Shown piece after piece: positions 2,659 through 63,873 of a stretch of 64,000 nt of DNA (position 1 is its first letter; every line of letters starts with the position of its first letter). The stretch is from positions 1 through 64,000 of the forward strand of contig NZ_NMQZ01000004.1 in the NCBI RefSeq assembly GCF_002864685.1, written 5' to 3'. This DNA comes from Alloalcanivorax mobilis (GTDB taxonomy: Bacteria; Pseudomonadota; Gammaproteobacteria; Pseudomonadales; Alcanivoracaceae). The notes under the pieces were generated by a model. The model did not search any database and was not told the origin of the DNA. It was given only the letters and a program-made list of their open reading frames with translations. A program made the position numbers and the translations under genes.

Positions 2659-5259
2659 ATGCCGAAATTTGGCTCCGAACAAAAACGTTACCTGGTCGAG
2701 CACCTGTCGGTGCTGATGGTGGTGGCCGGCCTTTGCATACTGTTGATGATCAGCGGGGCGTTGTCGTTCCTGAACCGCTATCTCTACGACAATATGATGC
2801 AGATGGTGCCGGTGGAGCCCTCCGGTGACGTGGTGATCGTCGGCATCGACGAATACAGCCTGCGCGAGATCGGCCGCTGGCCCTGGGATCGCCGAGTGCA
2901 TGCCCAGATCATCAATCAGCTCCATAAGCAGGGCGCGCGCGCCATTCTCATGGATCTGATCCTCTCCGAGCCGGACCGGGCTCATCCGAAATCCGACCAG
3001 GCCCTGACCGAGGCGATCGCCAACGACGGCCACGTCTATTTGCCGGTGCATGTGGAGCAGTTGCGCTCCGGCGGGCAGTTGATCGAAGTGCTGCCGCACG
3101 CGCCCTTTGCCCGGGTCGCCAAGGGCCTGGGGCACGTGGATCTGGAGTTGGATGGCGACGGCGTGGCGCGTTCGGTGTTCCTGCGCTCGGGCATCGGCCA
3201 GCCCTGGTGGCCGCACATCACCCAGGCATTGCTTGAGGGCGAGGGGCTGCTTTCGCCGGACGTCTACGCCGCCGGTGAAGAGCAGAGCTTCGCCGGGCTC
3301 GCCAATGTGCGCAAATACCCCCGCTTTATTCCGTTCACCGGCGGCGCCGGGACCTACCCCCAGGTGTCGGCGGTGGATCTGCTGGAAGGGCGGGTGCCGG
3401 ACGATCTGATCAAAGGTCAGTTCGTGTTCATTGGCGCCACCGCCTCGGGGCTTGGCGATATGCTGCCCACCCCCACCGCCGGCCAGGGTGAATTGATGTC
3501 CGGCGTGGAGATCAACGCCAATATTTTCGATGCGCTGCGCGACGACCGGCTGATTCGTGGCATGGATACCCTGCCGGCGTTGTTGCTGAGCCTGCTGCTG
3601 GCGTTGCTGGCACCGTTGGCGCTGCCGTTCGTGCTGCCGCGCTGGAGCATCCCGCTGGTGATCGGTTCAATGCTGCTGACACTGGGCACCTGTCTGGGGC
3701 TGATGGTGCTGTTCGATCTGTGGTTCCCGCCGTCCTCGGCGTTGATCGCGGCTCTGGTGGCCTACCCGCTGTGGACCTGGCGCCGGCTTGAGTACTCGAT
3801 GGCGTATATGCGCAATGCGCTGGAGCGGCTCTCCGAGCACAGCGACCTGAACCGCCGGCTCACCGAGCCGGCGCCGCTGTCGCGGATGTTGCGCATGCTC
3901 GACCAGGTGATGCCGTTGCGCGCCTGGCGGCTGGACACCCAGGGTGGCGCGTCCGCGGTATCCGGCGGTGAGAAACTGGCGCCGGTGGATTGGCGCGGGC
4001 CGCTGGCGCGCCGCTATCCGTTCCGGCACGAGGGCAAGCGCTACGAGCTCTGGGTGGTGTGGCGCCAGGGGCTGGACGCGGACACCTACGATTACTGGAT
4101 TCGGGCGATGCTGGCGCGCACCGAGAATCGCCGTTCCCAGCAGGGTCCCCGTTTCGAAGTGATGGAAAAGCACGTCGAGCGCCTGCGTGACGAGGAGCAG
4201 CGCCAGCAGGCGCTGACCCGCTTCTTCCAGGTCGGCCTGGCGCAGATGAGCGAGGGCGTGCTGATCGCCGACGCTTGCGGCGGCGTGGTGTTTATTAACC
4301 CCCAGGCGGCCTATCTGCTCAGCCTGGAAGGCGTGGGCCAAGACACCCTGGGGCTGGCGGACATCGGCCGCGAGCTGGAATTCAGCGGTGAGCGGGGCTG
4401 GTTGGAGCTGCTCCAGGAGGTGCTCGCCGACGGGCGGGTGCAGAAGGAGTGCCGCAACCACCGTGGCATGGACCTCTACCTGGACATGATTCTGGTGCAC
4501 GCCGGCGACCAGCCCGGGCGCATGCTGATCATCAGCCTCAAGGACATTTCCGACGTCAAACAGGCGATGCGCACGCGCACCGAAATGCTGGATTTCCTGT
4601 CCCACGACCTGCGCTCGCCGATGGTCTCGGTGCTGGCATTGATCGGCAAGATGCGCCACGGCGAGCAGGGCGAAAAACTGCGTGAGTTTCTCGATAACGT
4701 GGAACATTACGCGCACCGCAACCTGAACATCGCGGAGCAATTCCTGCAACTGGCCCGGGTCGAGGCCGACGAAGCGGTGGAGATGGTCGAGCAGGACATG
4801 CTCGATGTGGTGGAATCGGCCATCGATCAGGTGCAGATCCAGGCCCAGACCCGCAATATCGCCCTGCGCTTCAATTACGACCCGGATCAGGATGTGTGGG
4901 TGCGGGGCAACAACGAGTTGCTTGAGCGGCTGGTGGTCAATCTGCTGACCAACGCCATCAAATACAGCCACGAAGGTGGTCAGGTGGAGGTCAGCCTGGC
5001 CGCCGAAGACGGCCGGGTGCTCTGCGAGGTGCGTGACCAGGGGGTGGGCATCCCCGAAGGCTTCCAGGATCGCCTGTTCGAGCGCTTCAGCCGCGCCAGC
5101 AACAGTGGCGGGGGGCGCACTCGTGGCGCCGGCCTGGGGCTGCGTTTCGTCAAGGTGGTCACCGAGCGTCACGGTGGCGATATCCAGGTGCGGAGCGAGC
5201 CCGGCAAAGGCAGCTGTTTCACGCTTTCGCTGTTGCGGGTGGAGGTCAGCGGGCTGTGA
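2659..5259 (+). CDS. CHASE2-domain hybrid-free sensor histidine kinase
   Basis: 866 residues. An N-terminal membrane helix (about 15-38) is followed by an extracytoplasmic CHASE2 domain (about 40-300, with VVIVGIDEYSLREIGRWPW), a cluster of three membrane helices (about 305-375), a linker with a coiled stretch, a PAS-like domain (about 515-630), a HisKA domain with the phospho-acceptor H649 (FLSHDLRSP) and a HATPase domain. The N box (NLLTNAIKYS), G1 box (DQGVGIPEGF) and G2 box (GAGLGLRF) are present, so the kinase should be active. CHASE2 senses unknown extracytoplasmic signals. No receiver domain is fused. The OmpR-type regulator upstream is its probable target. Confidence 0.9.
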   Translation: MPKFGSEQKRYLVEHLSVLMVVAGLCILLMISGALSFLNRYLYDNMMQMVPVEPSGDVVIVGIDEYSLREIGRWPWDRRVHAQIINQLHKQGARAILMDLILSEPDRAHPKSDQALTEAIANDGHVYLPVHVEQLRSGGQLIEVLPHAPFARVAKGLGHVDLELDGDGVARSVFLRSGIGQPWWPHITQALLEGEGLLSPDVYAAGEEQSFAGLANVRKYPRFIPFTGGAGTYPQVSAVDLLEGRVPDDLIKGQFVFIGATASGLGDMLPTPTAGQGELMSGVEINANIFDALRDDRLIRGMDTLPALLLSLLLALLAPLALPFVLPRWSIPLVIGSMLLTLGTCLGLMVLFDLWFPPSSALIAALVAYPLWTWRRLEYSMAYMRNALERLSEHSDLNRRLTEPAPLSRMLRMLDQVMPLRAWRLDTQGGASAVSGGEKLAPVDWRGPLARRYPFRHEGKRYELWVVWRQGLDADTYDYWIRAMLARTENRRSQQGPRFEVMEKHVERLRDEEQRQQALTRFFQVGLAQMSEGVLIADACGGVVFINPQAAYLLSLEGVGQDTLGLADIGRELEFSGERGWLELLQEVLADGRVQKECRNHRGMDLYLDMILVHAGDQPGRMLIISLKDISDVKQAMRTRTEMLDFLSHDLRSPMVSVLALIGKMRHGEQGEKLREFLDNVEHYAHRNLNIAEQFLQLARVEADEAVEMVEQDMLDVVESAIDQVQIQAQTRNIALRFNYDPDQDVWVRGNNELLERLVVNLLTNAIKYSHEGGQVEVSLAAEDGRVLCEVRDQGVGIPEGFQDRLFERFSRASNSGGGRTRGAGLGLRFVKVVTERHGGDIQVRSEPGKGSCFTLSLLRVEVSGL

Positions 5260-12673: not shown

Positions 12674-13420
12674 ATGTTTGAAATGACCGGTAAACGGGTT
12701 CTGATCACCGGCGCGTCCAGTGGGTTTGGCGCCCATTTCGCCGTTGCCCTGGCCAAGCAGGGCGCCGATCTGGTGCTGGCCGCCCGCCGCGTCGAGAAAC
12801 TTGAGCAGACCGCGCAAGCGGTGCGCGATCTCGGTCGCGAAGCCCTGGTGGTGCCCATGGACGTGGCCGACCACGCCAGTGTGGAGAAGGCGTTCGCCGA
12901 CATGCCCGCCCTGGACGTGGTGGTCAACAACGCCGGCATTACCCGCGAAGGCAGCACCGACCGGATCGACGCCGAGGATTGGAACGCGGTGATCGACACC
13001 AACCTCAATGGGGTCTGGGCGGTCAGCAAGTTCGCGATCCAGCAATGGCGTCGCGACGAGCGCCCCGGCAACCTGATCAACATCGCTTCGATTCTGGGGC
13101 TGCGGGTCGGCGCCATGCTCGCCCCCTACACCGCCTCGAAAGCCGCGGTGGTGCAACTGACACAGTCCATCGCCCTGGATTACGCCCGCTACAACATCCG
13201 CTGCAACGCCATTTGCCCGGGCTATTTTGAAACCGACATCAACCGCGAATTCTTCCAGGGGCCCCACGGCGCCAAGCTGATCAAGCGGATTCCCTATCAC
13301 CGCCTCGGGCAGATCGACGAACTGGTCGGCCCACTGCTGTTGCTCGCCTCCGACGCTTCCAGCTACATGAGCGGCGCCGCCCTTCCGGTGGATGGCGCGC
13401 ATTTGTGTAATACGCTTTAG
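12674..13420 (+). CDS. SDR-family oxidoreductase
   Basis: 248 residues of a classical short-chain dehydrogenase/reductase. The cofactor motif is TGASSGFG (residues 12-19), followed by NNAG at 85-88 and the catalytic triad S139, Y152, K156 (PYTASK). R38/R39 after the second strand (AARR) suggests NADP(H). Length and C-terminal pattern (SSYMSGAALPVDGA) match FabG-like or 3-hydroxyacyl/steroid dehydrogenases; the substrate is unknown. AGAGGAG lies seven bases before the ATG. It sits between the AraC gene and a heptanucleotide repeat, so it is probably a single-gene unit. Confidence 0.88.
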   Translation: MFEMTGKRVLITGASSGFGAHFAVALAKQGADLVLAARRVEKLEQTAQAVRDLGREALVVPMDVADHASVEKAFADMPALDVVVNNAGITREGSTDRIDAEDWNAVIDTNLNGVWAVSKFAIQQWRRDERPGNLINIASILGLRVGAMLAPYTASKAAVVQLTQSIALDYARYNIRCNAICPGYFETDINREFFQGPHGAKLIKRIPYHRLGQIDELVGPLLLLASDASSYMSGAALPVDGAHLCNTL

Positions 13421-13422
13421 GG

Positions 13423-13635
13423 CGTTAGACGTCTGACGCCGGACGCCGGACGCCGGACGCCGGACGCCAGACGCCAGACGCCAGACGCTAAACCCGCGTC
13501 TGCCAGGCTTGGTGTGTTTTCTGCGAGACCCCGTGCAAACAGATAGGTTCGCGGAGGCATTCCAGGAAACACCCCATCGATCTCCGCACCGGGTTTAGCG
13601 TCCGGCGTCCGGCGTCCGGCGTCTAGCGTCAAGCG
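13423..13635. repeat. Heptanucleotide inverted array (CGCCGGA family)
   Basis: Ten tandem 7-bp units fill 13423-13492 (four CGCCGGA, three CGCCAGA and variants), starting two bases after the SDR stop codon. Six reverse-complement units (TCCGGCG and variants) fill 13594-13635. The inner ends form an exact 11-bp inverted repeat, CGCTAAACCCG at 13486-13496 and CGGGTTTAGCG at 13590-13600, around a unique core of about 93 bp. The same plan recurs at other gene ends in this window. Confidence 0.9.
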
Positions 13636-15351: not shown

Positions 15352-15393
15352 CGTCTGACGTCTGACGTCCGACGTCCGACGTCCGACGCCCGG
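15352..15393. repeat. Heptanucleotide array (CGTCCGA), one-sided
   Basis: Six tandem 7-bp units: two CGTCTGA, three CGTCCGA and one degenerate end unit. They lie in the 51-bp gap between the dioxygenase stop and the convergent livF stop. No facing inverted array is present here, unlike at 13423 and 56755. Confidence 0.85.
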
Positions 15394-31013: not shown

Positions 31014-31805
31014 ATGAGTCTGCCGGAGTACGAAGTGTTCGCCGTGCGCATGGCCAGCGCCGAGCGGCGCGCGCCGGACAATTTTCTCACCCGCGATGTG
31101 CACGACGGCATCATGCCGCTGGATTTCTACATCTGGGTGTTGCGCCACGCCGGCCATCTGGTGGTGGTGGACACCGCCTTCAGCGCGCACTCTTCCCAGC
31201 GCCGCAAACGCTCGCTGGAGGTGACCCCGGAACAGGCGCTGCAGGCGCTGGGTCACCCGCCCGGCGAGGTGGACGACGTCATCATTACCCACCTGCACTA
31301 CGACCACGCCGGCGGCCTGGCCAGTTTTCCCCAGGCCCCGCTGCACATCCAGGACCGTGAAGTGGCGTTCGCCACCGGCCGGCACATGTGTCACTCGTCG
31401 CTGAATCATTTTTTTGAAGTGGAAGACGTGGTGGCGATGGTGCGTGAAGTGTACGCCGGGCGTGTTCGCTTCCATGATGGCGAGACACGGCTCGCGCCGG
31501 GCTTATCCCTGCACCGGGTGGGTGGCCACACCGATGGCCTGCAAGTGGTGCGCGTGCACACCCGGCGAGGTTGGCTGGTGCTGGCCTCCGACGCGCTGCA
31601 TTACTATCAGAATCTGGAGCGCCGTAACCCGTTTCCCGCCATCTTTCACGTCGGCGACATGCTGGAAGGCTACGACCTGATCGAACGCCTTGCCGACTCT
31701 CCCGACCACATCATCCCCGGCCACGATCCAGCGGTGCGCGAACGCTACCCGCGCCTGACGGTACCCGACCTGGACATCGCCGTGCTGCATCAGTCGCCTG
31801 TTTGA
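31014..31805 (+). CDS. MBL-fold metallohydrolase (N-acyl-homoserine-lactonase-like)
   Basis: 263 residues of the metallo-beta-lactamase superfamily, with the dinuclear zinc motif THLHYDHAG (H93, H95, D97, H98), a later histidine in GGHTDGLQ near residue 171, an aspartate in ASDALHYY and a final histidine in IIPGHDP. The layout matches the AttM/AiiA lactonase subgroup. In this operon it is more likely to hydrolyse a pathway lactone or thioester than a quorum signal (inference). It is the last gene of the eight-gene operon, and a heptanucleotide array starts at its stop codon. Confidence 0.87.
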   Translation: MSLPEYEVFAVRMASAERRAPDNFLTRDVHDGIMPLDFYIWVLRHAGHLVVVDTAFSAHSSQRRKRSLEVTPEQALQALGHPPGEVDDVIITHLHYDHAGGLASFPQAPLHIQDREVAFATGRHMCHSSLNHFFEVEDVVAMVREVYAGRVRFHDGETRLAPGLSLHRVGGHTDGLQVVRVHTRRGWLVLASDALHYYQNLERRNPFPAIFHVGDMLEGYDLIERLADSPDHIIPGHDPAVRERYPRLTVPDLDIAVLHQSPV

Positions 31806-31942
31806 TGTCGGACGTCGGACGTCGGACGCTAAGTCAAAACCCGGTTCTTCTGACATTGCGGCTCTGCAACGAGTCTTTGCGTGAGCTCAAACCGCTCCGT
31901 TTGGGGGTTAAGCGTCAGTCGTCCGACATCAGACGTCCGACC
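31804..31942. repeat. Heptanucleotide inverted array (GACGTCG family)
   Basis: The left arm at 31804-31831 has four units (GATGTCG, two GACGTCG, GACGCTA). The right arm at 31908-31942 has reverse-complement units (TTAAGCG, TCCGACA, TCAGACG and others). The core of about 76 bp is unique. The array begins inside the MBL stop codon and ends 61 bases before the DMT transporter gene. Confidence 0.85.
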
Positions 31943-37768: not shown

Positions 37769-37890
37769 GTTTTCAGTTTTCAGTGTTCAGTTTTCAGTGG
37801 GTGGGGCGGGCACGGTGTCCCGCAAACCACGGCCCCGCCCAGGGGGCGGGGTCGTGCGTGCAAGCGTGTTGCGTGTAGCGTGCCGCGCCT
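37769..37890. repeat. Heptanucleotide units (GTTTTCA, GCGTGTN) and a GC hairpin
   Basis: 37769-37796 holds four units, GTTTTCA, GTTTTCA, GTGTTCA and GTTTTCA. 37829-37854 is a GC-rich hairpin (CCCCGCCC/GGGCGGGG) that could stall the amtB transcript, though without a T tract. From about 37856, a degenerate seven-base repeat built on GCGTGTT, GCGTGTA and GCGTGCC runs up to the amtB stop codon. Confidence 0.7.
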
Positions 37891-43477: not shown

Positions 43478-43498
43478 GCGTCCAGCGTCCAGCGTCCA
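43478..43498. repeat. Short heptanucleotide array (GCGTCCA)x3
   Basis: Three perfect GCGTCCA units lie 100 bp before the first pqiA gene. It is the shortest member of the GACGTCC-like family seen here. The 316-bp gap 43283-43598 otherwise holds the REP-like palindrome at 43345 and no gene. Confidence 0.8.
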
Positions 43499-43598
43499 GC
43501 CCACCTTTTTCCCTTTTTTACCGGTCTTCACGCCGACGCGCATGGTGACGGTACGAACGTGCCTTTAAAGTGGTTTTTTTGCCGGCGCGACCCCCACC

Positions 43599-45529: not shown

Positions 45530-45654
45530 GTTAAAAGTTGCAAGTTAAAGGTTGAAGCGCGGCGAGGCGTCGCGGATCAGTGAGACCTGGAGGGCGCGAC
45601 ATAACGAGTGGCACACCCGCCTCGCCTTTTAACTTTTAACTTTTAACTTTTCAC
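45530..45654. repeat. Heptanucleotide inverted array (TTTTAAC family)
   Basis: Left arm 45530-45557: GTTAAAA, GTTGCAA, GTTAAAG, GTTGAAG. Right arm 45627-45654: three TTTTAAC and TTTTCAC. The arms are reverse complements, and the core is bounded by GGCGAGGCG and its complement CGCCTCGCC. The right arm runs into the stop codon of the SDR gene at 45651. The unit sequence is unrelated to the GACGTCC family but the layout is the same. Confidence 0.85.
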
Positions 45655-48560: not shown

Positions 48561-48608
48561 TTATTGTCGCTTGACAAGTTCTAAAACGGAACTGACTATG
48601 GAGAGTAA

Positions 48609-48733
48609 GTTTTCAGTGTTCAGTTTTCAGTTTTCAGCAAAACCGACATTGAGTGTTTGCTGGCGTAGGCACCTTGATTCCGGAGCACCAAGCCGGTTTT
48701 CTAACTGAACACTGAACACTGAACACTGAACAC
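48609..48733. repeat. Heptanucleotide inverted array (GTTTTCA/TGAACAC family)
   Basis: Left arm 48609-48636: GTTTTCA, GTGTTCA, GTTTTCA, GTTTTCA. Right arm 48706-48733: four TGAACAC units, the reverse complement of GTGTTCA. The core is bounded by AAAACCG and its complement CGGTTTT, again an inverted-repeat border. It lies 30 bp before the SDR gene at 48764. Confidence 0.88.
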
Positions 48734-48763
48734 TCTGAAAAACCCGGATGACGAGGAAATGCC

Positions 48764-49492
48764 ATGACTGCTCCAGCCGTATTGGTGGTGGGGGCGGGCG
48801 ATGCCACGGGCGGGGCGATTGCCCGCCGGTTCGCCCGGGAAGGGTTCACCGCCTGCGTGACCCGTCGGCACCAGGACGCCCTGGCGCCGCTGGTCGAGGA
48901 GATCGAAGCAGCGGGAGGCCAGGCGCGTGCTTTTGGCTGCGACGCCCGTGACGAACAGCAGACCATTGATCTGGTGGACACCATCGAACAGCAGGTCGGG
49001 CCGCTGGAGGCGGTGGTGTTCAACATCGGCGCCAACGTCAATTTCCCGATCCGAGAGACCACCGCGCGGGTCTACCGCAAGGTTTGGGAGATGGCCGCGT
49101 TCGCCGGTTTCCTGGCCGGTCGGGAGGCGGCCCGGGTGATGGTGCCACGCGGGCGCGGCACCATTATCTTCACCGGCGCCACCGCGTCGCTGCGCGGTGG
49201 CGTCGGCTTCTCCGCGTTCGCCGGCGCCAAGTTCGCATTGCGGGCGCTGGCCCAGAGCATGGCCCGCGAGCTGGGGCCGGAGGGCGTTCATGTGGCCCAT
49301 TCGATCATCGATGGCGCCATCGACACCGCCTGGATTCGGGATAACTTTCCCGAGCGCTACAAGCTCAAGGAACAGGACGGCATTCTCAATCCGGAGCACA
49401 TCGCCGACGCCTATTGGATGCTGCACCAACAACCCCGCGACGCCTGGACCCACGAGCTGGATCTGCGCCCCTGGATGGAAAAGATGGCGTAG
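48764..49492 (+). CDS. SDR-family protein with Phe in place of the catalytic Tyr
   Basis: 242 residues. The nucleotide-binding motif is VVGAGDATGGAIA, the NNAG motif is replaced by NIGA (87-90), and the active site reads S142 ... F152-A-G-A-K156, so the catalytic tyrosine is phenylalanine. The remaining fold pattern (RALAQSMARELGPEGVHVAHSIIDG) is normal SDR. Oxidoreductase activity by the usual mechanism is doubtful; the protein may bind NAD(P) for another purpose or use a different acid. It converges with the MFS gene nine bases downstream. Confidence 0.85.
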   Translation: MTAPAVLVVGAGDATGGAIARRFAREGFTACVTRRHQDALAPLVEEIEAAGGQARAFGCDARDEQQTIDLVDTIEQQVGPLEAVVFNIGANVNFPIRETTARVYRKVWEMAAFAGFLAGREAARVMVPRGRGTIIFTGATASLRGGVGFSAFAGAKFALRALAQSMARELGPEGVHVAHSIIDGAIDTAWIRDNFPERYKLKEQDGILNPEHIADAYWMLHQQPRDAWTHELDLRPWMEKMA

Positions 49493-52332: not shown

Positions 52333-54213
52333 ATGAGTTCGCAGCCGCACAGCCCGTTTGACGCCATCTATAACGTGGAACGTTGGGGCGAGGGCTATTT
52401 CCGCATCGGCGCCGATGGCCACCTGCGGGTGCGCCCGCAAGGCGCCGATGGCCGCGAAGCGACCCTGGAAGACGTGCTCAGCGCATGCCGGGCCGCGGGC
52501 CTGCGCACGCCGGTGCTGGCGCGTTTCTCTGGCATCCTGCGCGACCGCGTGCGGCGCCTCGCCGGCGCCTTCCGCGACGCCATTGAGCAGCAGCATTACG
52601 ACGCCGGCTATACGCCGGTTTACCCGATCAAGGTCAATCAGCAGCGCCGCGTGGTGCACGAAATTCTGCGTGCCCGCGACGAAGGCGAGCCGGTCGGCCT
52701 GGAAGCGGGTTCCAAACCGGAGTTGCTGGCGGTGCTGGCGCTGTCCAATCCCGGCGACATCGTGGTGTGCAACGGCTATAAAGATCAGGAGTACCTGCGC
52801 CTGGCGCTGATGGGCCAGAAGCTCGGCGTGCGCGTGCACATCGTGGTCGAGAAGCTCTCCGAATTGCCGATGCTGCTCAACGAAGCGGAGCGCTTGCAGG
52901 TGTCGCCGCGCATTGGTTTGCGAGTGCGGCTGATGAGCATCGGCAAGGGCAACTGGCAGAACACCGGTGGCGAAAAATCCAAATTCGGGCTCAGCGCGCC
53001 GCAATTGATTCAGGCGGTGGAGCACTGCCGCGCCGCCGGCAAACTGGATTGCCTGCGCATGCTGCATTTCCATCTCGGCTCGCAGATCGCCAACATCCAG
53101 GACATCAAAGCGGGCATGCGCGAAGCGGCGCGTTACTACACGGAATTGCGCACCCTGGGCGCCGGTGTCGACACGGTGGACGTGGGCGGCGGCCTGGGGG
53201 TGGATTACGAGGGCACCCACTCGCGCTCCTATTGCTCGATGAACTACGGCGTCGCCGATTACGCCTGGCACATCGTGCAAACGCTGGCCGAGCAATGCGC
53301 CCGTTTTGGCCAGCCGGTGCCCGACCTGATCTCCGAATCCGGGCGCGCGCTCACCGCCCACCACGCCGTGCTGCTGCTCAACATCACCGACGAAGAGCGC
53401 CTCGAACGGGCCGACGTGCAGGCCCCCGGCGAGCAGGACGGCAACGAATTACGCGAGCTGTGGCGCCTGAACGGGCTGCTGGTCGGCGAGCAGCCCAACC
53501 TGCTGGAGATTCACCCGGAACTGGTGGGCGCCTGGCAGGATTTGCACCTGCGCTATTTGAGCGGCGAATTGAGCATCGCCGACCGGGCCCGCGGCGAGCA
53601 ACTGTACATCAACGGTCTGTTGGCGCTGCGCGAGCGTCTCGACCCGCGCCGCCGTCAGCAGCGTGAACTGCTTGATCGCCTCAACGAACTGCTCGCCGAC
53701 AAGCTGTTCGTCAATTTCTCGGTGTTCCAGTCGGTGCCCGATGTCTGGGGAATCGATCAGATTTTCCCGGTGCTGCCGCTCTCCGGCCTTGATCAGCCGG
53801 CCACCCGGCGTGGTGTGCTGCAGGACATTACCTGCGACTCCGATGGCCGCATCGATCAGTACGTGGACGGCGAAGGCGTGGAAACCAGCCTGCCGTTGCC
53901 CGAGCGCATCAACGGCCACCTGGGCATCTTCATGGTGGGCGCCTACCAGGAAATCCTGGGCGACATGCACAATCTGTTCGGCGACACCGATTCGGTGGAT
54001 GTGAACCTCACCGAAACCGGACAGATCGAGCTCAGCCACGCGATCCAGGGCGACACCGTCAGTTCGGTATTGCGCTATGTGAACTACGACCCCGAGCGTC
54101 TGCTCGGCACCCTGGAGCAGCGTTGCCACCAGGCCCAACTCGACGACGCCGAACGGCAGCGCTTTCTCGGCGAGATTCGCGATGGCCTGGCCGGCTACAC
54201 TTACCTGGAATAA
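52333..54213 (+). CDS. speA: Biosynthetic arginine decarboxylase
   Basis: 626 residues of a fold III (alanine-racemase-like) PLP enzyme. PLP-binding lysine K100 lies in YPIKVNQQ. The HFHLGSQ and VDVGGGLGVDYEG segments bind the cofactor phosphate, and the late CDSDG motif supplies the active-site cysteine and aspartate across the dimer. It converts arginine to agmatine, the first step toward putrescine. AAGGAA precedes the ATG at 52333. The last codons are followed by two imperfect copies of its own 3' end (54203-54250). Confidence 0.95.
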   Translation: MSSQPHSPFDAIYNVERWGEGYFRIGADGHLRVRPQGADGREATLEDVLSACRAAGLRTPVLARFSGILRDRVRRLAGAFRDAIEQQHYDAGYTPVYPIKVNQQRRVVHEILRARDEGEPVGLEAGSKPELLAVLALSNPGDIVVCNGYKDQEYLRLALMGQKLGVRVHIVVEKLSELPMLLNEAERLQVSPRIGLRVRLMSIGKGNWQNTGGEKSKFGLSAPQLIQAVEHCRAAGKLDCLRMLHFHLGSQIANIQDIKAGMREAARYYTELRTLGAGVDTVDVGGGLGVDYEGTHSRSYCSMNYGVADYAWHIVQTLAEQCARFGQPVPDLISESGRALTAHHAVLLLNITDEERLERADVQAPGEQDGNELRELWRLNGLLVGEQPNLLEIHPELVGAWQDLHLRYLSGELSIADRARGEQLYINGLLALRERLDPRRRQQRELLDRLNELLADKLFVNFSVFQSVPDVWGIDQIFPVLPLSGLDQPATRRGVLQDITCDSDGRIDQYVDGEGVETSLPLPERINGHLGIFMVGAYQEILGDMHNLFGDTDSVDVNLTETGQIELSHAIQGDTVSSVLRYVNYDPERLLGTLEQRCHQAQLDDAERQRFLGEIRDGLAGYTYLE

Positions 54214-54250
54214 CACTTGCCTGGAATAACACCTACCTGGACTAACCGAA
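54203..54250. repeat. 16-bp tandem triplication at the speA stop codon
   Basis: ACCTGGAATAACACTT, GCCTGGAATAACACCT and ACCTGGACTAACCGAA are three successive 16-bp units, the first containing the speA stop codon. Slippage or duplication at the gene end is the simplest explanation. It does not alter the protein. Confidence 0.85.
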
Positions 54251-56332: not shown

Positions 56333-56755
56333 ATGTGGCGACAACACAGCATCCGCCTGGCGGCGCGTCCGCGCGGTTTTCATCTGGTCACCGGTGACGT
56401 GCTTGACGCCTTGCCGGAGCTGGCGGAATACCGAATCGGCCTGCTGCACCTGTTTATTCAGCACACCTCGGCGTCGCTGGCGGTGAACGAAAACGCCGAC
56501 CCGGATGTGCGCGACGATCTGGAACGCCACTTCAACGCCACGGTGCCGGAAAACGCCCGCTACTATGAGCACACCCTGGAAGGCCCGGACGACATGCCCG
56601 CGCACATAAAAAGCGTGCTGATCGGACCGTCACTGACGGTGCCGATCCGCGACGGCGCGCTGGCATTGGGGACCTGGCAGGGCCTGTATCTGTGCGAACA
56701 CCGCGACCGCGCCGGACCCCGCACGGTGATCGCGACGCTGCAGGGGGAGGGGTAG
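56333..56755 (+). CDS. YjbQ family protein (UPF0047)
   Basis: 140 residues of the YjbQ/UPF0047 family: [33 protein letters not shown] carries the conserved histidine and asparagine/aspartate residues, and [14 protein letters not shown] closes the domain. Members show weak thiamine-phosphate synthase activity and form metal-binding trimers; the cellular role is unsettled. It is probably cotranscribed with the dehydrogenase gene. Its stop codon directly abuts a heptanucleotide array. Confidence 0.88.
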
Positions 56756-56985
56756 ACGCCGGACGCTAAACCCTCAGGTTCGGGGCAACGGCGCCGTGCC
56801 ATTCGGCCAAAACATTTCGCGATCGAGGATCGCTCCCACGCGGCGTTGTAGATGGTTTTGTGTTTTGCGTAGGAGCAGGCCTTGCCAGCGACGGGTTTGA
56901 TCTTAATCTTTAGCGTCCGACGTCCGACGTCCGACGTCCGACGTCCGACGTCCGACGTCCGACGTCCGACGTCCGGCGTCAGACC
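56755..56985. repeat. Heptanucleotide inverted array (TCCGACG family), longest copy
   Basis: The left arm at 56755-56768 has only two units (GACGCCG, GACGCTA). The right arm at 56909-56985 has eleven: TTTAGCG, eight perfect TCCGACG, TCCGGCG and TCAGACC. The border GACGCTAAA faces TTTAGCGTC as at 13486. The core (56776-56908) contains REP-like fragments, including GTAGGAGCAGGC at 56870. It ends 15 bp before the stop codon of the lipoprotein gene at 57001. Confidence 0.92.
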
Positions 56986-63469: not shown

Positions 63470-63490
63470 GTTTTCGGTTTTCAGTGTTCA
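63470..63490. repeat. Short heptanucleotide array (GTTTTCA)
   Basis: GTTTTCG, GTTTTCA and GTGTTCA lie 13 bases after the SDR stop. They belong to the same unit family as 37769 and 48609. No facing arm is seen before the hairpin-chain element. Confidence 0.75.
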
Positions 63491-63545
63491 GTGGGAGATT
63501 CTATGGTGCCCTGCAAGAGCAGTGACGGTGAGAAGATCTCTCTTA

Positions 63546-63776: not shown

Positions 63777-63873
63777 CATTAGACGTCGCGTAGGAGAGGC
63801 CGGGCGGCGTTCCGCTGGGCGGCATTCCGCTAGGCGGCATCCCGCCCAGCCAGCGACGTCTTTTGATGTTTAT

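Follow-up and report, generated by a model that had tools for sequence, protein, structure and literature searches.

Mirror-paired heptanucleotide arrays as candidate arms of small mobile hairpins between the genes of a bacterium

Eukaryotic foldback transposons (FB/Galileo-type) have long inverted termini, made of variable-number short tandem repeats, around a variable loop; they are mobilised by known transposases, and their repeats are longer than the units described here. Integron attC sites carry 7-bp boxes, RYYYAAC and GTTRRRY in that order, and occur with an integrase and cassettes. In bacteria, REPINs are REP doublets that form hairpins and are linked to RAYT transposases (PMC3116915). 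Intergenic GGGAATC heptamers form convergent inverted pairs in Xanthomonas (70 in Xcc, 75 in Xac), and the account given of them there states that they are generally not associated with mobile elements (PMC4692102). TAACTGA heptamers have been reported from Beggiatoaceae, cyanobacteria and Bacteroidetes (PMC4679880), and the SPADE survey, in its section on these repeats, presents heptamers as the most abundant intergenic tandem repeat in widely differing prokaryotes and sees no clear hint of what they do (PMC6344855). A link of heptamer arrays to mobile hairpins in bacteria was not found in the parts of the open-licence literature that treat such repeats. The earlier note on this DNA knew of no described equivalent in this group, and nothing was found that contradicts it; however, heptamer arrays are already published broadly (PMC6344855), as are convergent pairs for Xanthomonas (PMC4692102).

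In this study, we analyzed a window of 64 kb (the whole stretch of DNA presented above, part of contig C34 in the 4.10-Mb genome G000). We propose, with a probability of roughly 0.57, that the mirrored heptamers are arms of non-autonomous foldback/REPIN-like mobile hairpins inserted repeatedly between genes. In a scan of periods 2-24 with a score cut-off of >= 14, period 7 accounted for 10 arrays in the window and periods 2-6 and 8-13 for none; the remaining matches had period 14 (n=6), 21 (n=2), 15 (n=1) and 16 (n=1), periods 14 and 21 being multiples of 7. No period-7 array appeared in 30 order-2 Markov resamples of the window. The arrays are real at the places given in the earlier note and far beyond chance. 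An Rfam search of the window returned a single tRNA, with no match to any array. Two other tandem repeats lie at 54197-54246 (16-bp unit x3.1) and 63802-63845 (15-bp unit x2.9). The elements of the window, part by part, are the following.

13428-13488, plus strand: left arm of element A1 (GACGTCT, 4x GACGCCG, 3x GACGCCA, GACGC), beginning 7 bp past the stop codon that ends at 13420
13489-13597, unstranded: hairpin core of A1, type 1 (TAAACCCG..GGTGTGTTTTCTG..CAGGAAACACC..CGGGTTTA), with a 92% identical copy of the element at G000:C49
13598-13639, minus strand: right arm of A1, GCGTC plus CGGCGTC-type units
15352-15392, unstranded: single, partnerless GACGTCN array (self-palindromic unit), flanked by two convergent ORFs
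31804-31829, plus strand: left arm of A2, GACGTCG units, overlapping a stop codon
31830-31911, unstranded: core of A2 (TAAGTCAAAACCCGG..TTGCGGCTCTGCAA..GGGGGTTAA), resembling type 2 in a by-eye comparison with other cores
31912-31942, minus strand: right arm of A2
37769-37798, plus strand: single B array, GTTTTCA x4
43478-43500, minus strand: lone right arm, GCGTCCA x3, the preceding sequence resembling a type-2 right end (by eye)
45530-45556, plus strand: left arm of the C-unit element, GTTAAAA / GTTGCAA / GTTAAAG
45626-45651, minus strand: right arm of the C-unit element, CTTTTAA x3.7
48608-48637, plus strand: left arm of the B-unit element, TTTTCAG/TGTTCAG
48638-48703, unstranded: core of the B-unit element, between both B arms
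48704-48734, minus strand: right arm of the B-unit element, CTGAACA x4
56755-56766, plus strand: left arm of A3, GACGCCG GACGC
56767-56912, unstranded: core of A3, containing a REP-like GTAGGAGC sequence
56913-56984, minus strand: right arm of A3, about 10 units of CGTCCGA
63470-63493, plus strand: single weaker B array, score 11, under the cut-off of 14

Tandem 7-mers were present in all five stretches that had been named before (13423, 15352, 31804, 43478 and 56755). That list was incomplete, since two further unit families, TKTTCAG (B) and AACTTTT (C), occur in the window: B forms a mirrored pair at 48608-48734 and stands alone at 37769 and 63470, and C forms a mirrored pair at about 45530-45651. 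This makes three families in the window and four in the fetched genome stretches, family D (GAAGCTK type) lying elsewhere in the genome. The mirror layout with CGCTAA / TTAGCG ends described earlier was recovered at 13423, 31804 and 56755, with TTAAGCG as the right end at 31804 against TTAGCG elsewhere, but not at 15352, which is partnerless, nor at 43478, where the right arm stands alone. Most arrays do start near a stop codon, as had been claimed, with four of the five (13423, 15352, 31804 and 56755) overlapping one or beginning within about 8 bp. At 48570-48764, a promoter-like TTGACA..ACTAT precedes the B element, and the start codon of the next gene follows it; this promoter-like sequence, with a GTTC..GAAC dyad, was also seen by eye in several sister genomes. 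Because of this position, the B element would be transcribed as a leader hairpin.

The same organization extends over the genome. In G000, the CGCTAA-ended unit pattern GACGNCNGACGCTAA matched 58+42 times on the two strands, TNTTCAG x3 91+77 times and GACGYCN x3 183+184 times, each against 0 for the reversed-pattern control. In 97 G000 stretches (432 kb, some overlapping), which were picked around pattern hits so that array counts therein are not genome-wide rates, there were 193 period-7 arrays, and every other period from 4 to 21, bar the multiples 14 and 21, gave at most 5. Neighbouring arrays of the same family within 250 bp of each other in these stretches were convergent in 82 of 86 cases (A 66, B 10, C 4, D 2), after identical pairs from overlapping stretches had been removed and palindromic GACGTC arrays left out; the other four, all of family A, comprised three same-strand pairs and one divergent pair. 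In the fetched stretches of G012, G005 and G001, 14 of 14 neighbour pairs were convergent. By eye, the units of most families share a dinucleotide polarity, with AG reading inward. The period is not strictly 7 in arrays of the CACGC type (L308, L311, L312, L315 and L316; G002, G009, G012 and G005), because 7-bp CGCAACA units are mixed there with 8-bp CGCTTGCA and CGCATACA units. Two compound arrangements were also seen: a complete A-unit element nested inside a D-unit hairpin with GCTTCAA/TTGAAGC-type arms (L107, G000:C67:112600-116600, at 1938-2222), and a whole A element of about 121 bp, arms included, in three tandem copies (L078, G000:C22:4800-11600, at 4760-5143).

The core between the arms had been taken for unique sequence, and this view has to be given up, as it is a repeated hairpin type; the element at 13423 and its copy at C49 agree over 193 bp. 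When 57 A-family cores from the fetched stretches were sorted by short motifs, the type-1 stem motif (TAAACCCG .. GTGTTTnCTG .. CAGnAAACAC .. CGGGTTTA) was found in 37, with both halves in 35, the type-2 stem motif (GTCAAAACCCGG .. TTGCGGCTACGC .. GCGTAGCCGCAA .. CGGGTTTTGAC) in 19, and neither in one. The exact type-1 stem pattern occurred in 6 of 46 genomes of the family. Across 22 aligned type-1 cores, picked for clean ends, 8 of 11 predicted inner-stem pairs were invariant, and one pair covaried (UA 8, CG 5, UG 3, AU 2, unpaired 4), with both sides changed in 7 sequences; this single covarying pair is weak support for the stem by itself. Folded as single-stranded DNA, the 13423 element reached -71.5 kcal/mol against -44.5 (sd 3.4) for shuffles (z = -8.0), and the B element -30 against -15.5 (sd 2.8; z = -5.2).

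Thirteen genomes of the genus, G000 and 12 sisters, were compared, and the elements are lineage-specific. Per strand, GACGYCN x3 was found 143/272 times in G012, 11/27 times in G005, 0-8 times in four others and not at all in six. The three window elements at 56755, 48608 and 45530 were missing in every comparable sister. For the 56755 element, no array followed the orthologous gene in 12 of 12 sisters, the downstream gene adjoined in 11 of 12 (not in G011), and the gap in several sisters held a different REP-like palindrome instead. For the B element at 48608, where the right flank alone was aligned, none of the 12 sisters had an array in the 160 bp preceding the aligned start of the gene, and the C element at 45530 was absent in all four sisters with both flanks aligned. 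At the gene end upstream of 13423, 11 of 12 sisters had no array within 260 bp; G012 carried an independent element of its own there, with the other core type, directly past the same stop codon.

The sites of G012 were compared with those of G001, G002 and G011, with aligned flanks 87-99% identical. Thirteen of 15 sites were examined and 11 resolved; L325 and L329 had no sister locus fetched, and L331 site 1 and L326 were left out with their left side unresolved. At 10 of the 11 resolved sites, the cored element was missing from all three relatives, and the eleventh, L328b, is an old element common to all relatives in some form. At six of the ten empty sites (L323, L324, L328, L332 and L331 sites 2 and 3), every relative lacked an array with at least two good units, and one or two heptamer-like units were already present at L324, L332 and L331 site 2. 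Another array family occupied L327 in G001 and G002 and L330 in G001, and core-less heptamers lay at L322 and L334 in G002; since relatives carry other arrays or heptamers at G012 sites, the same gaps have been hit repeatedly. At L322, the left arm of G012 is common with G002, where the core is absent. The G002 orthologue of L334 (L400) has a perfect, core-less 28-bp palindrome of four heptamers (GTCGGACGTCTGACGTCAGACGTCCGAC), and the G002 orthologue of L322 (L417) contains a nearly identical stretch. Because several empty sites already hold heptamers, the target may be heptamer-like, or part of an arm may predate insertion. Occupied and empty sites, compared by eye, showed no constant target-site duplication, but the arrays blur the junctions. 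The earlier note had named identical and static sites in sister strains as a finding that would speak against it; the sites are not static, because elements are missing at orthologous sites in sister species.

Considering mirror pairs, homologous cores, occupied and empty sites and unit-wise arm growth, all of them observed, we have proposed a plausible model. Each mirrored pair would be one small non-coding, hairpin-shaped element, in which a loop or core separates two convergent arms of tandem heptamers, allowing a single strand to fold back; this single-strand hairpin would presumably be the moving or recognised form. The elements would insert into intergenic gaps, as the occupied and empty orthologous sites indicate, in a non-autonomous manner and probably through a trans-acting enzyme. 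After insertion, local duplication through slippage or unequal exchange would add whole units to the arms or remove them; unit-wise change is visible in neighbour units and at one shared site, and polymerase slippage may be the growth step. The loop may hold a conserved core or other REP-like repeats, or be nearly empty. Many mirrored pairs in other phyla have short, unrelated loops, so that homologous cores are no general feature, and the arms may partly belong to the target, given the heptamer units at empty sites and the core-less G002 heptamers at L322 and L334.

Another explanation, which we consider unlikely on balance, has two layers: heptamer palindromes form first as a landing site, a MITE-like core later enters the loop, and only the core moves. 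Its main support is that arms and core can be exchanged, because unit type is coupled between arms and yet differs on the same core. The fraction of GACGT units was coupled between the two arms with r = 0.97 over 71 pairs, a value reached by 0 of 5000 permutations (one of the 8 rows flagged in this test, at window 56919, is a single array split by the pattern). For seven GACGT-armed elements, one of which has only a 26-bp loop, the nearest core relative in each case has GACGC arms, and the arms around the same type-1 core are of GACGCC units in G000 and G005 and of CACGC type in G002, G009, G012 and at one G005 site. Core-less mirrored pairs (loops of 8-54 bp; also L338/L339 in G005) and the G002 states of L322 and L334 would fit as well. 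However, L323, L328, L332 and L331 site 3 lack an array of at least two good units in every relative, which indicates that arms can come in together with the element.

It is improbable, in our estimate, that the hairpins are kept for a function at gene ends (bidirectional terminator, mRNA 3'-end protection or cistron insulation), with mobility incidental. Of 95 placed array clusters, 41 lay in convergent gaps, which make up 68 of the 224 gaps of those stretches, and the clusters were a median of 7 bp from the neighbouring stop codon; these figures come from a crude ORF finder, with 31 of 136 clusters inside ORFs, 10 more unplaced and overlaps included in the distances. Similarly, four hairpins on phage contig L496 begin 2-13 bp past an ORF end (mechanical ORF list), ahead of a GGAG-like sequence. 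In contrast, presence is not conserved among sister species, the B element at 48608 lies between promoter-like sequence and start codon, and the purging of insertions into genes would also leave survivors beside stop codons.

Plain 7-mer slippage at already palindromic sites, with no mobile element, appears very improbable as a general account. Heptamer arrays do vary alone: eight fetched IncFIB plasmids of Enterobacter and Salmonella (L452-L459) each carry, upstream of an AAA-ATPase gene, a single, unmirrored TTTTCAG array whose consecutive units number from 5 to 10. These plasmid arrays were rejected as mirrored elements, being single and unmirrored and hence ordinary variable-number repeats, and served as a control. 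Slippage could hold for single arrays such as that at 15352 but is strongly disfavoured for the cored elements by the homologous cores at many loci, the empty sister sites and the mirror polarity of 82/86. As a growth step within the mobile hairpins proposed above, local duplication agrees with the arms themselves. In G000, 51.6% of adjacent units were identical, against 34.5% (sd 1.6) after within-array shuffling, and because neighbouring units are alike more than shuffling allows, the arms seem to lengthen by local duplication and not through a copying enzyme. At the shared site L328b, the right arm has 1 full unit in G011 and 16 in G012, a difference that argues for arm growth in place. Mean arm lengths in G000, left and right, were 5.7 and 6.2 units for type 1 and 6.4 and 5.3 for type 2, and the number of units in one arm did not correlate with that in the other (r = 0.07 and 0.19); these groups follow a looser first sorting of cores (58 matches as 32/24/2, one core twice). 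The earlier view that slippage alone does not explain the mirror layout is supported, since this layout belongs to hairpin elements, but a special copying mechanism for the arrays is not supported: the likeness of neighbouring units and the uncorrelated arm lengths are what local duplication by slippage predicts.

The arms of G012 are one-sided. Among 30 of 34 right ends examined, right arms were bimodal, with 1-2 units in 12 cases and 7-22 in 18, and perfect CGGCGTC made up 194 of 201 right units in 23 elements with a readable left end; left arms were mixed and had a mean of 4.7 units. Arm lengths in G012 may be understated because its contigs end in arrays. This pattern, which may leave room for a copying step, would be compatible with either a long-armed master copy or growth linked to one side of the element. 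We give very little credence to a templated, telomerase-like repeat-adding enzyme as the builder of the arms, for which this G012 pattern and the species-specific unit type on the same core could speak, since in G000 the likeness of adjacent units speaks for local duplication and both arms are about equally long.

Similar arrays were found far outside the genus. When genome contigs were searched for exact CAGTKTT x3 + CAG, at least 118 stretches matched; judged by their record titles, the 80 matches listed come from ten phyla or more, and as most are metagenome bins, some titles may be wrong. CAGTKTT occurs with the same polarity in records titled Planctomycetota, Chloroflexi, Acidobacteria, Verrucomicrobia and Gammaproteobacteria and in viral contigs. 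Among the 80 matches listed, B pairs at most 400 bp apart were convergent in 19 cases, same-strand in 3 and divergent in none. Period 7 accounts for 136 arrays in the same 80 loci, and no other period from 4 to 13 for more than 10; as these loci were picked for a heptamer, only the 44 of 136 arrays whose consensus differs from the two B units are informative. Matching neighbour pairs there were inverted in 6 of 8 cases for non-B units and 16 of 17 for B. The B scan of viral contigs yielded 56 stretches, with 21 convergent, 6 same-strand and 0 divergent pairs, counts that include repeated contigs of seemingly the same phage. One 70-kb IMG/VR contig (3300036851_000385; L549, L555, L558) carries five convergent GACGCCA pairs with related 38-42-bp cores and one divergent neighbour pair between two GACGCCA hairpins. 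Against plasmids, the B element matched 27 records (Enterobacter 23, Citrobacter 3, Salmonella 1); no plasmid matched a 121-base piece of a G012 element. It is tentative, and on present evidence rather doubtful, that mirror-paired heptamer hairpins form one trans-phylum mobile foldback class of bacteria and phages that explains the excess of intergenic 7-bp periodicity in prokaryotes.

Candidate movers were sought in the genomes and in the elements. Y1 (RAYT-type) transposases matched in 13 of 13 genomes (48 matches), and at 29 of the 30 loci examined no heptamer array of these units lay within about 1.5 kb; the sole exception, L304 (G000:C14:59694-60199, L116), has an unpaired B array about 200 bp away. 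Several Y1 genes have GTGGGA or GTAGGAGC repeats nearby instead, and RAYT/Y1 was rejected as mover on these grounds. No transposase was found inside an element among the ORFs of one long element, L433, which has the longest G012 core (1303 bp) and whose ORFs appeared repeat-derived by eye. Integron attC sites were also rejected, because the order in family C (GTTAAAA left, TTTTAAC right) is opposite to that of the attC boxes; by eye, the units of A, B and D are unlike those boxes.

If the mobile-hairpin reading is true, the arms would offer a testable handle on the long-unexplained excess of seven-base repeats in bacterial genomes, and the question would shift beyond regulatory roles of single arrays to shared cores, empty sites and the mover. 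The elements would also allow the survival of long inverted tandem arrays in bacteria to be studied in a natural setting.

Among known systems, heptameric simple sequence repeats of the STRR type share the near-perfect or perfect intergenic tandem 7-mers. Mirror layout and mobility, both of concern here, are not discussed in the part of the SPADE survey devoted to heptamers (PMC6344855). The Xanthomonas GGGAATC pairs are intergenic convergent heptamers as here, with no shared core mentioned in their description (PMC4692102). The TAACTGA repeats likewise form intergenic 7-mer arrays, patchy across phyla, with indels between two Cyanothece strains mostly in 7-nt steps; unlike here, the sections describing them count 169 direct sets and one indirect set in the main genome, most of the repeats lying just upstream of start codons (PMC4679880). 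REPINs, as portrayed in the relevant sections, are also short intergenic inverted pairs in many copies, form hairpins in single-stranded DNA, are proposed to be non-autonomous mobile DNA, and show whole-element tandem copies and insertions into one another; their arms are single REPs, whereas those described here are variable-number tandem 7-mers, and RAYT genes here adjoin other REP-like repeats at several loci rather than heptamer arrays (PMC3116915).

The elements described here are inverted, hairpin-forming intergenic pairs in many copies, as REPINs are; because 29 of 30 Y1 loci lack these arrays, membership in that class fails and the likeness of layout stands. With MITEs they share terminal inverted repeats, non-coding content and presence or absence at orthologous sites. 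Their inverted termini of variable-number short tandem repeats around a loop have the same layout as those of foldback transposons, and, if the proposed reading is true, they would be a bacterial counterpart to these eukaryotic elements, in which arm units that change fast and differ between species surround a core of greater age.
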